Assembly: GCF_000716545.1 (NCBI RefSeq)
Contig: NZ_JNWZ01000084.1
Span: 1 to 30,115, forward strand
DNA from: Kitasatospora phosalacinea
GTDB taxonomy: Bacteria; Actinomycetota; Actinomycetes; Streptomycetales; Streptomycetaceae
DNA length: 30,115 nucleotides
Direction: 5' to 3'
This document shows positions 20,639-28,728 of the stretch, in pieces. The first letter of the stretch is position 1; each line of letters opens with the position of its first letter. The notes beneath the pieces were generated by a model, which was not told the DNA's origin, made no database searches, and saw nothing but the letters and a program-made list of their open reading frames with translations. A program made the translations under genes and the position numbers.

Positions 20639-22108
20639 CTAGGCGGGGTGCTCCTCGGTGCTGCGGGAGTCGGTGAGGGTGAGCGCGCCGCCCGCGGTGA
20701 CCAGGCCGACGATCACCGCCAGCACGGCGTAGGTGATCCGCTCGCCGTGGAAGAAGGAGTGCACCAGGCCGCTGTCCCAGGTGCCGGCGGGCAGCTGGGT
20801 GGTGACCAGGGCGGCGATCAGGGTGCCGACGACGGCGGTGCCGACGCTGCTGCCGACCTCCTGCGCGGTGTCGTTGAGGGCGGTGCCGATCGAGGTGCGG
20901 TTCTCGGGCACCGCCTCGACCAGGGCGATGGCGCAGATGGTCATGACGGTGCGCAGGCCGACGGTCATCACGACCATGCAGACCGCGATGGCGGCGTACC
21001 CGTGGGAGACGCCCCAGGCGAGGCCGGCCAGCGCGCCGGCCAGGCAGGCGGCGCCGACCAGGCAGGCGACGCGGTGGCCGAAGCGCTTGGCGAGCCACTC
21101 GGACAGCGGGGTCGCGGCGAGCATGGTGAAGATGATCGGCAGGTTGGCCAGACCGGCCTTGACCGGGCTCCAGCCGTAGGCGTACTGGAAGTGCAGGATC
21201 AGGCCGAACATGACGGCGGCCATCGCGATGGCCGTGCCGATCTGGGCGATGGCGGCGCCGCGGACGGTGCCGCCGGCGAAGAGCTTCAGGTCGAGCATGG
21301 GGGCGGTGGTGCGGCGCTCGTGCCGCACGAAGGCGGTGCCCGCGACGAGGGCGCCGAGGATCGAGCCGATCGTGGCGGCGGAGCCCCAGCCGTGGTCGAC
21401 GCCGCTGGTGAGCGAGTAGCAGGCGAGGCCGATGGCGGCGACGCTCAGCACGGCGCCGGGCAGGTCGAGCCGGTCGCGGGTGAGGTCCTCGGGCCGGTCG
21501 GCGGGGACGCCGAGGCGCACGCCGACGGCCGCGATCAGCGCGATCGGGGCGTTGACCAGCAGCAGCCACTGCCACTTCACGTGGGCCAGGGCGGTGCCGC
21601 CGAGCAGCGGGCCGAGGACGAAGCCGGACATGCCGACGACGATCATCACGGTCATCGCCCGCATCCGCAGCGCCGCGTCGTCGAAGAGCCGGAAGACCAG
21701 CGAGTTGGTGATCGGGGCCATCGCGGCGGCGGCGACGCCGAGCCCGGCCCGCAGCGCGATCAGCTGCCCGGCGCCGGTGACGAGGGCGACGCCCAGGCTC
21801 AGCAGGCCGAACACGGCGAGGCCGGCCAGCAGGACGCGGCGGCGACCGAGCCGGTCGGCCATCGACCCGGCGGTCAGCAGCAGGCCGCCGAAGGTGAGCG
21901 AGTACGCGCCGGTGACCCACTGCAGCGCGGTGGTGCCGCTGCCGAGGTCGCGGCCGATGGTGGGCAGCGCGATGGACAGCAGCGTGTTGTCGACCATCTC
22001 GACGAAGAAGGCCAGGCAGAGCGCGGCCATCGGGATCCATGCCGCGCGCAGCGACGGATAGGTGCGCGGTGCCGCTGGGGCGGCGGCGGCGGTTTCGGTG
22101 CCGGTCAT
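20639..22108 (-). CDS. MFS drug transporter, DHA2 (EmrB/QacA-like) family
   Basis: This 489-residue membrane protein has about 14 hydrophobic segments, the number and length typical of DHA2 drug:H+ antiporters. The signatures are LCLAFFVEMVDNTLLSIALPTI (helix 1, acidic motif D1), motif A GSMADRLGRRRVL (about residues 80-92) and the antiporter motif C-like VGMSGFVLGPLLGG (about 158-171). It likely exports a cationic or amphipathic drug. GAGGAGG lies a few nt before the ATG. It is divergent from a TetR gene, with a set of TTCGATA half-sites between them covering both promoters. This is the standard layout of a ligand-induced efflux pump. Confidence 0.93.
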   Translation of the reverse strand: MTGTETAAAAPAAPRTYPSLRAAWIPMAALCLAFFVEMVDNTLLSIALPTIGRDLGSGTTALQWVTGAYSLTFGGLLLTAGSMADRLGRRRVLLAGLAVFGLLSLGVALVTGAGQLIALRAGLGVAAAAMAPITNSLVFRLFDDAALRMRAMTVMIVVGMSGFVLGPLLGGTALAHVKWQWLLLVNAPIALIAAVGVRLGVPADRPEDLTRDRLDLPGAVLSVAAIGLACYSLTSGVDHGWGSAATIGSILGALVAGTAFVRHERRTTAPMLDLKLFAGGTVRGAAIAQIGTAIAMAAVMFGLILHFQYAYGWSPVKAGLANLPIIFTMLAATPLSEWLAKRFGHRVACLVGAACLAGALAGLAWGVSHGYAAIAVCMVVMTVGLRTVMTICAIALVEAVPENRTSIGTALNDTAQEVGSSVGTAVVGTLIAALVTTQLPAGTWDSGLVHSFFHGERITYAVLAVIVGLVTAGGALTLTDSRSTEEHPA

Positions 22109-22964: not shown

Positions 22965-23405
22965 TCAGCCCCCGGTGTGCAGGCGCAGCAGCAGCCCGTG
23001 CAGGGCGGCGCGTTCGGCGGGGTCGAGCGGGGCGAGGACGGCGTCCTGGACGGCGCGGGCCTCGGCGTGGAGTTCGGCGAGGCGGGCGCGGCCGGCGTCG
23101 GTGAGGGTGAGGGTGAGGCGGCGGCGGTCGGCGGCGTCCCGGGTGCGGTCGATCCAGCCGCGGGCGGCGAGCAGGTCGGCGGCCTTGGCGAGGTCGCTGG
23201 GGTCGAGGCGCAGGCGGGCGGCGAGTTCGCGCTGGGTGTGCGGGCCGAGGTCGGCGAGGGCGGCGAGGGCCGCGTGGTGGTAGAGGCGCAGGCCGTCGGC
23301 GGCGAGGCGTTCGGCGAGTCGGGTGCGGGCGTCCTTGCCGGTGCGGGAGAGCAGGTAGGTCGTCAGTTCGCGGAGCGAGGGCGGGGTTCCGGTGGGATCG
23401 GCCAT
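22965..23405 (-). CDS. MarR-family regulator, divergent from a VOC protein
   Basis: This 146-residue MarR protein has LYHHAALAALADLGPHTQRELAARLRLDPSDLAKAADLLAARGWIDRTRDAADRRRLTLTLTDAGRARLAELH, i.e. the HTH, recognition helix and D-x-R-R-R wing. The ATG at 23405 is chosen because a TATGAT hexamer (23413-23418, minus strand) ends 7 nt before it and there is no ribosome binding site, a leaderless pattern; a second in-frame ATG lies inside that hexamer. It is divergent from the VOC gene with a perfect 9-4-9 palindrome between. It converges on the TetR gene with a 12-bp gap. Confidence 0.88.
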   Translation of the reverse strand: MADPTGTPPSLRELTTYLLSRTGKDARTRLAERLAADGLRLYHHAALAALADLGPHTQRELAARLRLDPSDLAKAADLLAARGWIDRTRDAADRRRLTLTLTDAGRARLAELHAEARAVQDAVLAPLDPAERAALHGLLLRLHTGG

Positions 23406-23429
23406 GGGGTCAATCATAGGTTCACCCCT

Positions 23430-23881: not shown

Positions 23882-24523
23882 GTGTGCTGGAGCGCCGAGG
23901 CCGACCTGATCGCCGGGAGCGCCGTGGCGGCGGTCGGCGTCGCGGCGGCGGTGCGCGCCGGAGCGTCGCGGCGGCTGCCGCTGGCCGCGCTGCCGCTGCT
24001 GCTGGGCGCGCACCAGGTGGTGGAGGCGGGCGTGTGGGCGGGCTGGGCGTGGGCCCGGACGGCGTGGGCGGTGATCGCGCTGCCGCTGCTGCCGCTGTAC
24101 GTCCCGGCGGCGGTGTGGTGCGCGACCCGCCGCCGCGCCGCCGCGTGGTTCACCCTGCTGGGCGCGGCCGTGGCCGTCCCGCTGGCGTGCGCCGTGGCCC
24201 GGCGGCCGGTGGCGGCGCACGCGCACGGGCACACCCTGGGCTACGCGGTCGGCGTCCCGGCGCCCGGCGTGCTGCTGGCCGGTTACCTGGCGGCGGTGCT
24301 GGGCGCGCTGCTGTGCTCGGGCGATCGGCACCTGCGGCTGCTGGGCTGGATCACCGGGGCGGGCGCGCTGGTGTGCGGCCTGCTGTGGCGGCTGGCGTTC
24401 GTCTCCACCTGGTGCGCGCTGGCCGCGCTCGCCTCGGTGCTGCTCTACCGCTGGGCGGTCGTCAACTCGTCGAGCAGCGCCAGGACTTCGGCCACCGAGC
24501 CGCCCGGGTCGGGCACCGGGTAG
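23882..24523 (+). CDS. DUF6629 family membrane protein
   Basis: This 213-residue protein begins MCWSAEADLIAGSAVAAVGVAAAV, the hallmark start of the actinobacterial DUF6629 family, and has about six or seven hydrophobic helices with HQVVEAGVWAGW in the second. Function is unknown. The GTG start has no ribosome binding site but follows TACGCT (23870-23875) by 6 nt, so translation is probably leaderless. Its 3' end overlaps the convergent HxlR-peroxiredoxin gene by 79 bp, so the last 26 residues (NSSSSARTSATEPPGSGTG) are encoded opposite that gene and are low complexity. The two transcripts would be antisense to each other there. Confidence 0.8.
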   Translation: MCWSAEADLIAGSAVAAVGVAAAVRAGASRRLPLAALPLLLGAHQVVEAGVWAGWAWARTAWAVIALPLLPLYVPAAVWCATRRRAAAWFTLLGAAVAVPLACAVARRPVAAHAHGHTLGYAVGVPAPGVLLAGYLAAVLGALLCSGDRHLRLLGWITGAGALVCGLLWRLAFVSTWCALAALASVLLYRWAVVNSSSSARTSATEPPGSGTG

Positions 24524-25344
24524 AGCACCGCGCGCACGGTGCGGGCGGCGTCGACCACCAGGGTGAGCCGCTTGAGCCGGTCGGCGCCGCCGGCCCGGAA
24601 GGTGGGCAGCCGCAGGGCTCCGGTCAGCCGCAGCGCGGCGTCCGAGAGCAGCGGGAACGGGATGGACTGGTGGGCGGCGAACGCGGCCTGCTGGTCGGGG
24701 CGCTGGGTGGAGACGCCGTGCACGGTGGCGCCGCGCTCGGTGAAGGCGTCCAGCCGGTCGCGGTAGGTGCAGGATTCGAGGGTGCAGCCGACGGTGCCGG
24801 GGATGTCGTCCCAGCCGGGCGGGTAGCCCTGGGTGCCGGGGGCGTAGGCGCCGGGGAAGCAGTACAGCACCGTCCAGGGGGTGCGGCCGACCGGGTCGGC
24901 CAGCGGCGGGCGGGCGCTCTCGGAGGCTGCGGGCAGGGCGAGTTCGGGGACGCGGGTGCCGACCAGGGCGTGCACCCGGCGGGTCTCGGCGGAGTCGGGG
25001 TCGGCGGTGGCGGTGAGGGTGCCGTCGCCGAGCAGGTGGCGGCCGCCCCAGTCCTGGAGGGCGACCAGCACCGGCAGCAGCCCCCAGCCCTTGTCGGTCA
25101 AGTGGTAGGCGTAGCGCGGCGGGTGGGCGTGGTAGAGGCGCTTCTCGACCACGCCGTCCTCGACCAGGGTGCGCAGTCGGGCGGTGAGCACCTTGCGGCT
25201 GATGCCGAGCGATTCGTGCAGGGCGTCGAACTGGTGGGTGCCGCCCGCGAGGTCGCGCACCAGCAGCAGGGTCCACCAGTCGCCGACCACGGACAGCGCC
25301 TGGGCGATGGAGCAGTCGGTGTCGCCGACGTCGGTGTAGCGCAT
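24445..25344 (-). CDS. HxlR-type regulator fused to a PrxQ/BCP-like peroxiredoxin
   Basis: This is a 299-residue two-domain protein. Residues 1-105 are an HxlR/DUF24 winged helix: DTDCSIAQALSVVGDWWTLLLVRDL with the family's N-terminal Cys (Cys11), then FDALHESLGISRKVLTARLRTLVEDGVVEKRLY and the YHLTDKG wing. Residues about 125-299 are an AhpC/TSA-type thioredoxin fold: WTVLYCFPGAYAPG, then GCTLESCTYRD with Cys187 and Cys192 in the C-x4-C spacing of PrxQ/BCP enzymes, VHGVSTQ and FPLLSDAALRL. In YodB/HypR-type HxlR proteins the N-terminal Cys senses oxidants. Here a peroxidase domain on the same chain could oxidise it. The ATG at 25344 has AAGG upstream. It is divergent from an MFS gene across a perfect palindrome. 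No frameshift or linker stop is seen, so the fusion is real. Confidence 0.88.
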   Translation of the reverse strand: MRYTDVGDTDCSIAQALSVVGDWWTLLLVRDLAGGTHQFDALHESLGISRKVLTARLRTLVEDGVVEKRLYHAHPPRYAYHLTDKGWGLLPVLVALQDWGGRHLLGDGTLTATADPDSAETRRVHALVGTRVPELALPAASESARPPLADPVGRTPWTVLYCFPGAYAPGTQGYPPGWDDIPGTVGCTLESCTYRDRLDAFTERGATVHGVSTQRPDQQAAFAAHQSIPFPLLSDAALRLTGALRLPTFRAGGADRLKRLTLVVDAARTVRAVLYPVPDPGGSVAEVLALLDELTTAQR

Positions 25345-25378
25345 GCGACCACCTTGCCACTGTCGCGCCCGCACCGCC

Positions 25379-25406
25379 TATAGTGAGTTCCCAAAGGGAA
25401 CTCACT
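25379..25406. promoter_or_regulatory. HxlR operator overlapping the MFS promoter
   Basis: AGTGAGTTCCC (25382-25392) and its exact reverse complement (25396-25406) flank AAA, a perfect 11-3-11 dyad. It overlaps TATAGT (25379-25384), a -10 box for the plus-strand MFS gene; TTGCCA at 25354-25359 is a possible -35, with a 19-nt spacer. It is the likely binding site of the fused regulator, controlling both genes. Confidence 0.85.
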
Positions 25407-25430: not shown

Positions 25431-26708
25431 ATGAGCACCACCAGCCCCACCCGCGCCGACCGACCGCTGCGGGCCCCCGCCGGCGGCGCGGCCGCCGCCT
25501 TCTGGCGCTACTGGACGGCCACCACCGTCAGCGGGCTCGGCGACGCCGTCACCGCGATCGCCCTGCCGCTGACCGCCGTCTCGGTGCTGCACGCGAACGG
25601 CTTCCAGGTCGGCCTGGTCACCGCCGCCGGCTACGTCGCCTGGCTGGTGATCGGCCTGCCGGCCGGCGTCCTGGTGCAGCGCCTGCCGCTGCGCGGCACC
25701 CAGATCGCCATGGACCTGCTGCGCGCCGCCGCGATCGCCTCCGTCCCGCTGGCCGCCGCGTTCGGCGTGCTCGGCCTGCCGCACCTGGTGGCGGCGGCGC
25801 TGCTGGTCAGCTTCGCCGGCGTGGTCTTCGACGTCGGCAACTCGACCTTCCTGCCCAGCGTGGTGCCGGCCGAGCAGCTCACCGCCCGCAACAGCCTGAC
25901 CTCCGCCACCCACTCGGTGAACCAGCTCGCCGGGCCCTCGCTCGGCGGCCTGCTGGTCCAACTGCTGGGCGCGGCGACCGCGTTGGTGACGGACGCGGTG
26001 AGCTTCCTGTGCTCGGCCGCGCTGCTGCGCACCCTGCCGCGGGCCGCCGCCGAGCGCCCCGCGCCCGGCGGCGAACGGCCGTCCTTCCGGGCGCAGATCC
26101 GCGAGGGCTGGCGCTACGCGACCCGGCACCCGGTGGTGGGCCCGTGCCTGGCCGAGGCGACCTGCGTCAACTTCGTCTGCGGCGCGCTGATGGCCGTGAT
26201 CCCGGTGTTCCTGGTCCGCACCGCGCACGCCCCGGCCGGGCTGGTCGGCGTGCTGATGGCCGCCGAGGGCGCCGGCAGCCTGGTCGGCGCGGCGCTCACC
26301 CCCCGGCTGGCCGCCCGCTTCGGCACCGCCCGCACCCTGGTCCTGGGTTCGCTGTTCGGCGTGCTCACCGCCCCGCTGATGGCCCTCGCCCCGGGCGGCC
26401 CCGGCCTGCTGCTGTTCGCGCTGGGCAACGCCGGGTTCGGCGCCTCCGTCGTGGTGCCCAGCATCCTGACCCGCACCTACCGGCAGGCCACCACCCCCGC
26501 CGCCCTGCTGCCCCGGGTGATGGCCACCGTCCGGTTCGTCTCCTGGGGCGCCATCCCGGTCGGCGCGCTGGCCGCGGGCACCGCCGTCTCGCTCTGGGGC
26601 GCCCGCACCGCGCTCGCCCTGGCCTGCGCGCTGACGGTGCTCTCCCCCGTCCTGCTGCTCTCCTCCCGGCTGCGCGGCGCCCGCGACCTGACCGACGTCG
26701 GCGCCTAG
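25431..26708 (+). CDS. MFS transporter (EntS/DHA3-like)
   Basis: This 425-residue protein has about 12 membrane helices. It begins FWRYWTATTVSGLGDAVTAIALPL, followed by GLPAGVLVQRLPLRGTQIAMDLLRA (motif A region), VVFDVGNSTFLPSVVPAEQLTARNSLTSATHSVNQLAGPSLGG (about residues 140-182) and a second half starting FRAQIREGWRYATRHPVV. This layout is that of the EntS/DHA3 exporters, which release macrolides or siderophores in other bacteria. AGGGGGAA precedes the ATG by about 5 nt. It is divergent from the HxlR-peroxiredoxin gene with a perfect operator between, so it is probably induced under oxidative or electrophile stress. Its stop overlaps the stop of the convergent deacetylase gene by 3 bp. Confidence 0.92.
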   Translation: MSTTSPTRADRPLRAPAGGAAAAFWRYWTATTVSGLGDAVTAIALPLTAVSVLHANGFQVGLVTAAGYVAWLVIGLPAGVLVQRLPLRGTQIAMDLLRAAAIASVPLAAAFGVLGLPHLVAAALLVSFAGVVFDVGNSTFLPSVVPAEQLTARNSLTSATHSVNQLAGPSLGGLLVQLLGAATALVTDAVSFLCSAALLRTLPRAAAERPAPGGERPSFRAQIREGWRYATRHPVVGPCLAEATCVNFVCGALMAVIPVFLVRTAHAPAGLVGVLMAAEGAGSLVGAALTPRLAARFGTARTLVLGSLFGVLTAPLMALAPGGPGLLLFALGNAGFGASVVVPSILTRTYRQATTPAALLPRVMATVRFVSWGAIPVGALAAGTAVSLWGARTALALACALTVLSPVLLLSSRLRGARDLTDVGA

Positions 26709-27624: not shown

Positions 27625-28728
27625 ATGGCTCCCTCCCCCCGGCCGCACTACCTGCAGTGGACGACCGTCGCCCCGGTGCTGGCGTTCCTGCTACTCCTGG
27701 CGACCTGGCACCGCGACCTGCCGTGGCCGGTGGTGGCACTGGTGGCCTGCTTCCTGGCGGTGTCGGTGGTGGCCGCGGTGCACCACGCGGAGCTGATCGC
27801 GCACCGGGTCGGCGAGCCGTACGGTTCGCTGGTGCTGGCGGTGGCCGTCACCATCATCGAGGTGGCGCTGATCGTCACGCTGATGGCGGACGGCGGCGAC
27901 AAGAGCGCGGGCCTGGCCCGGGACACCGTGTTCGCGGCCGTGATGATCACCTGCAACGGGATCCTCGGCCTGTCCATCCTGGTCGGCGCGCTGAAGTACC
28001 GGGTGGCCGTGTTCAACGCGGAGGGCACCGGCGCGGCGTTCGGCGCGATCGCCACCCTGGCGACGCTGAGCCTGGTGCTGCCGACCTTCACCACCTCCGA
28101 GCCGGGCCCGCGGTTCTCCACCACCCAGCTGGTGTTCGCCGCGACCGCCTCGATCGTCATCTACGGCCTGTTCGTCTCGACCCTGACGGTCCGCCACCGG
28201 GACTACTTCCTGCCGGTCACCCCGGCGGGCGAGATCGTCGATCCGATGGACGAGCACTCCGAGCCGCCGACCATGCGGGCCACGCTGGTCAGCGTGGCCC
28301 TGCTGTCGGTGGCCCTGGTGTCGGTGGTCGGCCTGGCCAAGGGCGTCTCCCCCACCATCGAGCGCGGCGTCGCCGCCGCGGGCCTGCCGGGCGCGGTGGT
28401 CGGCGTGGTGATCGCCCTGCTGGTGCTGCTGCCCGAGTCGATCGCCGCCGTCCGGGCCGCCGTCCGCAACCGGGTGCAGATCAGCCTCAACCTGGCACTG
28501 GGCTCGGCGCTGGCCTCGATCGGCCTGACCATCCCGGCGGTGGCGGTCGCCTCCACCTGGCTCTCCGGCCCGCTCGAACTCGGCCTGGGCGCGAACCACA
28601 TGATCCTGCTCGCACTGACCGTCGCGGTCGGCACCCTGACCGTCATCCCCAAGCGCGCCACCCCCCTGCAGGGCGGCGTCCACCTGGCGATCCTCGGCGC
28701 CTACCTGGTCCTCGCGGTCAGCCCCTGA
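27625..28728 (+). CDS. chaA: Calcium/proton antiporter (ChaA/CaCA family)
   Basis: This 367-residue protein has about 11 hydrophobic helices and the two inverted alpha repeats of cation/Ca2+ exchangers: HRVGEPYGSLVLAVAVTIIEVALIVTLM (about residues 60-88) and LLVLLPESIAAVRAAVRNRVQISLNLALGSALASIGLTIP (about 273-310), each with a conserved Glu for ion binding. The middle loop has an acidic VDPMDEHSEPPTM segment. It should export Ca2+ or Na+ in exchange for H+. The ATG at 27625 has no ribosome binding site and lies 7 nt after CAAGCT (27612-27617), another leaderless-like arrangement. It is divergent from the deacetylase gene with an 86-bp gap. A GC hairpin follows the stop. Confidence 0.93.
   Translation: MAPSPRPHYLQWTTVAPVLAFLLLLATWHRDLPWPVVALVACFLAVSVVAAVHHAELIAHRVGEPYGSLVLAVAVTIIEVALIVTLMADGGDKSAGLARDTVFAAVMITCNGILGLSILVGALKYRVAVFNAEGTGAAFGAIATLATLSLVLPTFTTSEPGPRFSTTQLVFAATASIVIYGLFVSTLTVRHRDYFLPVTPAGEIVDPMDEHSEPPTMRATLVSVALLSVALVSVVGLAKGVSPTIERGVAAAGLPGAVVGVVIALLVLLPESIAAVRAAVRNRVQISLNLALGSALASIGLTIPAVAVASTWLSGPLELGLGANHMILLALTVAVGTLTVIPKRATPLQGGVHLAILGAYLVLAVSP

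Follow-up and report, generated by a model that had tools for sequence, protein, structure and literature searches.

An HxlR–peroxiredoxin fusion of actinobacteria as a candidate redox-responsive repressor of exporter and O-methyltransferase genes

What a peroxiredoxin could contribute to a transcriptional regulator is the question raised by a gene of Kitasatospora phosalacinea that joins an HxlR winged helix and a peroxiredoxin (Prx) in one chain and that is divergent from a gene for a major facilitator superfamily (MFS) pump. Relays in which a thiol peroxidase hands peroxide oxidation on to a transcription factor are known from eukaryotes, where they run between separate proteins, as in the redox relay of Orp1/Gpx3 and Yap1. 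A bacterial one-chain version, if true, would make such a relay directly measurable. The gene lies in a stretch of 30,115 nucleotides that was analysed as a whole and is referred to here as the window. A first-pass annotation of this sequence had suggested that peroxide oxidises C187 of a C187/C192 pair in the Prx domain, that the disulfide is passed to C11 of the HxlR domain, and that repression of the divergent pump gene is thereby lifted.

With a GTG start, the open reading frame would cover 24445–25374 of the minus strand; an ATG at 25344, which is preceded by AAGGTGG, affords a protein of 299 amino acids with four cysteines (C11, C162, C187 and C192; Table 1). That both domains reside in one chain was borne out by a Pfam search, which placed HxlR (PF01638) at residues 19–103 (E 1.4e-21, 76.6 bits against a cut-off of 20.8), AhpC-TSA (PF00578) at residues 184–272 (E 1.1e-14) and Redoxin (PF08534) at residues 128–268 (E 1.2e-8), the latter two representing the fold of the peroxiredoxin superfamily. 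The protein can thus be divided into an HxlR part (approximately residues 12–104), a linker and a Prx part (approximately residues 123–299). Solved HxlR proteins are matched with E-values of 6e-22 (4gcv) and 1.1e-8 (YodB, 5hs7), and the NCBIfam PrxQ models NF053650 and NF006960 score below their cut-offs (44.4 bits for a cut-off of 260 and 34.8 bits for 140, respectively). A structure model of the fusion reached a mean pLDDT of 91.3 and a pTM of 0.87 and is weak near C11 (mean pLDDT of 49 for residues 1–10 and 64 for residues 11–20). In this model, C187 opens a helix, and C11 appears directly before helix 12–20 in the weakly modelled stretch. The fusion gene is convergent with a DUF6629 gene on the plus strand (23882–24523), with which it shares an overlap of 79 nt (24445–24523).

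Table 1. Features of the fusion locus in window coordinates.
Feature	Position	Strand	Remarks
HxlR–peroxiredoxin fusion gene	24445–25344	−	299 aa; PF01638, PF00578, PF08534
Cys192 codon, resolving-type cysteine	24769–24771	−	34/76 fusions vs 27/27 unfused relatives
Cys187 codon, Prx peroxidatic-type cysteine	24784–24786	−	76/76 fusions, 27/27 unfused relatives
Cys162 codon	24859–24861	−	56/76 fusions, 21/27 unfused relatives
Cys11 codon, HxlR N-terminal cysteine	25312–25314	−	74/76 fusions; the other two without N-terminus
Possible −35 box TTGCCA	25354–25359	+	spacer of 19 to TATAGT
−10 box TATAGT of the pump promoter	25379–25384	+	by sequence; the operator begins inside TATAGT
Putative operator, perfect 11-3-11 dyad AGTGAGTTCCC-AAA-GGGAACTCACT	25382–25406		sequence and family conservation
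Divergent MFS exporter, MFS_3	25431–26708	+	425 aa; PF05977 (E 1e-29), PF07690 (3.8e-25)

A protein search returned 2796 matches (E ≤ 0.001) among 8000 scored candidates, of which the best 120 all carry PF01638 together with PF00578. At E 1e-60 or better, the fusion was matched in 54 of 199 relatives, the window genome included, while a class-level search found matches in 21 of 394 genomes at 1e-35, including one Prx without an HxlR part and one chain without its N-terminus. Named carriers include members of Kitasatospora, Streptomyces, Streptacidiphilus, Embleya, Actinoallomurus, Janibacter, Knoellia, Luteipulveratus and Micromonospora. Five further records from a plasmid collection derive from Streptomyces (four) and Nonomuraea (one), and in both Streptomyces plasmid regions that were opened an annotated MFS transporter is divergent from the fusion. 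The architecture is already given by an automatic JGI name ('DNA-binding HxlR family transcriptional regulator/peroxiredoxin'); the NCBI names seen mostly read 'winged helix-turn-helix transcriptional regulator', and the Prx half is hence easily overlooked. Among the open-licence papers searched, no title or abstract opening on an HxlR–peroxiredoxin fusion was found.

The comparisons below are based on 76 distinct fusions from actinobacterial loci, many of which are close relatives, with identical chains counted once and matches of fewer than 200 aligned residues (L046, L047, L078, HxlR-only loci) left out; two chains that lack the N-terminus (L075 and L111) were in addition left out of the trees. 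As many matches of the protein search were partial, located on short contigs or still endowed with PF01638, unfused relatives were taken from a phylum search, 27 of whose 30 best loci could be used, the other three being fusions. Apart from one chance match of 25 residues, no HxlR gene was detected beside these 27 within the fetched flanks. Supposed proteobacterial fusions (L048–L058) were rejected, since their matches cover the HxlR part alone. Six of these loci (L048, L049, L051, L055, L056 and L058) contain frames of 321–350 codons that encode two HxlR domains per chain, each followed by C-x2-C.

The genome-neighbourhood survey that the first-pass annotation had called for revealed an exporter as the divergent gene in 65 of the 76 fusion loci; three families are represented, namely MFS_3 (43), MFS_1 (14) and ABC-2 permeases (8, including a weak match beside the incomplete fusion copy of L111). 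MFS_3 was therefore rejected as an invariable partner. The remaining divergent genes encode DapD (3), an O-methyltransferase (OMT; 3) or enolase (2), and three loci are without one (one with a flank of 4 kb, two at contig ends). DapD and enolase, five of the 76 in sum, are not obvious targets. For the MFS_3 pump of the window, no solved relative was found at E 0.001.

The divergent arrangement across a perfect 11-3-11 dyad that overlaps the −10 box of the pump gene could be retraced in the window sequence. Such a dyad is by itself not rare: the window holds two with arms of at least 11 and loops of at most 8, and 20 shuffles gave 0–3. As arms of this length arise by chance in a 30-kb window, the dyad was rejected as stand-alone proof; judged from the comparison of loci, it is its position and conservation, rather than the dyad itself, that exceed chance. 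At 28277 lies another perfect dyad, whose arms of 11 enclose a loop of 2. The pattern AGTNNGTTCC-N5-GGAACNNACT with 16 fixed bases was scanned in the 200 nt upstream of each fusion and was found with at most 3/16 mismatches in 69 of the 76 loci vs none of 1398 control windows from the same loci. In detail, 26 fusions show no mismatch, 20 show one, 14 two, nine three, five four, one five and one seven, while no control window has fewer than four and two have four. The seven fusions above three mismatches all adjoin exporters, as do 58 with at most three; the other 11 loci, in which the neighbour is of another kind or absent, all lie within this limit. A −10-like TATAGT coincides with the operator start in 32 of 74 loci and CATAGT in 14; a −35 hexamer with 5/6 matches precedes the −10 element by 16–19 nt in 22 of 74 loci vs 0.3% of control positions, and the best hexamer reaches at most 2/6 matches in 37 of 74. 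The fusions would thus have a palindromic operator near a promoter, as is usual for HxlR regulators.

This association extends to whole genomes. In the window genome assembly (226 contigs), 25382–25406 is the sole site with at most three mismatches to AGTSAGTTCC-N5-GGAACTSACT. Sites with at most one mismatch occur in 35 of the 199 genomes, comprising 34 of the 54 with a fusion and one of the 145 without (Fisher's p 4e-23, a value that ignores relatedness), and a reversed control pattern gave no such match in any of the 199. Of 36 sites at this limit, 32 adjoin a fusion by their coordinates, and four lie elsewhere (G049, G078, G064, G191). Looser limits are less clean: with two mismatches, the reversed control has one match in G352 and two in G091, and with three it has one each in G049, G027 and G218. 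It gives none in G078, G505 and G396. Taken together, this comparison supports the earlier suggestion that the dyad serves to control the divergent pump, and makes it very probable that the fusion is an operator-binding repressor.

Which genes might such a repressor serve apart from the adjacent pump? Away from the fusion, sites precede an OMT gene in G049, G078 and G505 and an MFS_3 pump gene in G064, where the fusion itself faces an MFS_1 pump. The OMTs belong to PF01596; their nearest solved proteins are named O-methyltransferase, and catechol and caffeoyl-CoA enzymes follow at lower ranks. A survey covered 30 loci out of 108 matches in 100 genomes. Among the ten OMTs with at least 70% identity to the G049 enzyme, all seven from fusion-bearing genomes have a site with at most four mismatches, 18–46 nt before their start, while this applies to one of the three from fusion-free genomes (G082). 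Three of the seven (G002, G083, G091) are divergent neighbours that share the site of the fusion, and four (G021, G049, G068, G078) are encoded elsewhere. Before the 20 more distant OMT paralogues among the 30 loci, no operator-type site was seen. Two of the three genomes with the fusion beside dapD (G078 and G505) each contain one other site (at most two mismatches), directly before an OMT gene; in the third, G388, no second site was found. The pump originally proposed as the single target was thus retained, and the putative regulon was widened to other MFS pumps, ABC-2 exporters and an OMT. The operator and neighbour data support a repressor dedicated to genes for export and detoxification. 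No recognised target follows three further two-mismatch sites of G396. This genome also harbors a natural split (L158/L078), in which a Prx gene without an HxlR part, encoding C187 and C192, faces an MFS_1 pump gene across a site; elsewhere in G396, an MFS_3 pump gene is preceded by two more.

Conservation of both cysteine sets had been set beforehand as a test of the relay, which C11 and C187 passed and C192 failed. In the window protein and its 120 closest homologues, C11 is invariant (121 of 121), C162 and C187 are each present in 120, and C192 in 72; the single chain without C187 (P0118) carries Arg at this position and keeps C11. Among the fusions, the reading of C11 as the N-terminal cysteine of the HxlR family, located at a helix start in the weakly modelled stretch, holds for 74 of 76. 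The C-x4-C pair of the window protein, a mark of atypical 2-Cys PrxQ enzymes, is found in 34 of 76 fusions vs 27 of 27 unfused PrxQ/BCP-like relatives; it does not characterise the fusion family, and C187/C192 as a conserved working pair had to be given up. The unfused proteins, which stem from other actinobacterial classes, resemble the fusions in their longer loop and in P164, C187, T188 and R259. In a tree of the Prx domains, they form one side of a branch with a support of 98, and C192 changed at least eight times among 74 fusions and not once among the 27 unfused proteins (spanning tree lengths of 24.8 and 14.1); a fusion-only tree gave six changes. In the aligned chains, C11 and C187 are the sole cysteines kept across the fusion family. 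Six members (L045 from Micromonospora sp. BL4, L093, L094, L109, L118 and L119), which fall into at least two separate clades, possess these two cysteines only and narrow a relay to one possible disulfide pair. Arg256 is present in all 76 fusions vs two of the 27 unfused relatives and may be a residue of the domain interface.

Fusion hence came with less constraint on C192, whereas C11 and C187 were retained, which is the pattern to be expected with C11 as the resolver of C187. On the basis of the variable C192, the persistence of C11 and C187 and the six two-cysteine chains, we favor a relay from C187 to C11, in which C11 replaces the usual resolving cysteine. In the reduced state, the HxlR part, which like YodB presumably forms a dimer, would occupy the 25-bp dyad and cover the −10 box of the exporter, whose gene it would repress, probably along with its own. 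An oxidant, either peroxide itself or peroxide from redox-cycling phenols, would then react with the peroxidatic C187. Since C192 is dispensable, the oxidised C187 could be resolved by C11 of the same or the other chain, and engagement of C11 would shift the recognition helices and free the DNA. The exporter, plus an OMT in some genomes, would be made and could remove redox-active phenolic or quinone-like compounds, before reduction returns the switch to its start. The fusion, its operator, the association with exporters and OMTs, the variability of C192 in fusions only and the constancy of C11 and C187 are supported by comparison; dimer, disulfide, DNA release and inducer are what we infer from them. 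Redox control through C11 and C187 appears probable, and the chances are about even that the fusion is an autoregulated repressor whose own chain includes the sensor, for either peroxide or a quinone-derived oxidant. A direct C187–C11 disulfide as the main signal comes close to an even chance. The complete proposal is more tentative still and falls somewhat short of one: a single-chain peroxide relay whose HxlR domain supplies the resolving cysteine of the Prx, so that the catalytic cycle doubles as the on/off cycle of the repressor, with the same operator and sensor plugged into interchangeable MFS_3, MFS_1 and ABC-2 exporters and a catechol/caffeoyl-CoA-fold OMT.

YodB, CatR and QsrR regulate the detoxification of quinones and catechols (PMC8063818, PMC6798810), and Cys6 at the helix start of YodB forms a disulfide with Cys101 of the partner subunit or takes a quinone adduct (PMC8063818). 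The fusion shares with YodB, QsrR, CatR and HypR the HxlR winged helix, an N-terminal cysteine before a helix and, in its case putative, a palindromic operator and detoxification targets. Unlike YodB, a single domain of 112 amino acids, it has a Prx attached about where the YodB chain ends. No C101-like second cysteine was found in its HxlR domain, C11 being alone in residues 1–104 of the window protein; its candidate partner would instead be the catalytic cysteine of the Prx. The operators differ as well, that of YodB being given as TACT-N7-AGTA. In the eukaryotic relays Orp1/Gpx3–Yap1 and Prx2–STAT3, it is a thiol peroxidase that reacts with the peroxide and a transcription factor that receives the oxidation, with two proteins there and one chain here. 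A Prx domain is also fused in the Prx–nitroreductase described under PDB entry 4eo3, whose partner is an enzyme rather than a DNA-binding domain.

The most serious alternative is that C11 alone senses through S-alkylation or mycothiolation, like Cys6 of YodB and QsrR, while the Prx is an ordinary peroxidase for local protection or reset whose C187 is resolved by mycothiol or another outside thiol. C11 is also present in 12 of 12 aligned HxlR-only relatives; its constancy alone therefore proves little, and the argument for the relay rests on the pattern. Moreover, Cys6 of YodB reacts with quinones unaided, and the disulfide is reported to reduce DNA affinity only a little in comparison with the quinone adduct, which frees DNA better (PMC8063818). 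AhpE of Mycobacterium tuberculosis, an actinobacterial 1-Cys Prx with a similar fold, meets mycothiol, as the title of a solved structure indicates (asymmetry in the active site upon exposure to mycothiol), and the association with OMTs suggests phenolic stress. However, sensing by C11 alone would leave unexplained why C192 varies only after fusion and why the conservation of C187 and R259 equals that of C11, and we regard it as unlikely.

Alternatively, the Prx fold might mainly bind a ligand or mediate dimerisation and thus sense the exporter substrate without redox chemistry. While the Prx motif PxxxT/SxxC places P and Cys seven residues apart, P164 and C187 are separated by 23 residues in the window protein, and the active-site loop has a variable extra length. 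In addition, the Thr/Ser that peroxiredoxins carry three residues before the peroxidatic cysteine is not a family feature: position 184 is T in the window protein, A in 51, T in 14, G in 10 and S in one of the 76 fusions, and A in all 27 unfused relatives. With Ala prevailing at this position, peroxidase activity is putative. The neighbours are drug-type exporters, which would suit a ligand sensor. Yet, C187, P164, T188 and R259, the last assigned here as the putative catalytic Arg of the Prx, are each retained in 76 of 76 fusions. A non-catalytic fold should lose C187, which is missing in just one of 121 close homologues, and this explanation is therefore improbable.

With regard to C162, a cysteine that the first-pass annotation had not named, which is kept in 56 of 76 fusions and could be the resolver there, the evidence counts against the C187-to-C11 relay. 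Nine fusions of one clade (L034–L037 and L112–L116; family f3, genus g19) have lost C162 and carry Cys in place of S212, possibly a swap of a helper cysteine; residue 212 is predicted on another strand of the model than C162. These observations could be accommodated by an autoregulated antioxidant enzyme with two functions, whose C187 is resolved within the Prx by C162 (by C212 in clade f3) and whose neighbours are not targets. This explanation is very improbable, as 11 of 76 chains contain neither cysteine, chains without C162 are also without C192, and sites go with the fusion and are found again before exporter and OMT genes at other places in the genome.

A C187-to-C11 relay would give a concrete hint about the signals to which actinomycete exporters and methyltransferases respond, and fusion and operator might serve as a peroxide-responsive promoter part. 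A possible unfused analogue is encoded in the fusion-free G191, in which a site lies between a plain HxlR gene and a divergent gene (L243, 2032–3244). This HxlR protein shares 48% identity over 107 residues with the HxlR domain of the fusion, and the product of the divergent gene presumably resembles a DUF899/thioredoxin-fold protein. The window itself encodes a second MFS exporter (20639–22108, minus strand) near a MarR-type regulator (22965–23417, minus strand); this exporter scores 741.6 bits to the Tet(43) model, under the cut-off of 999.
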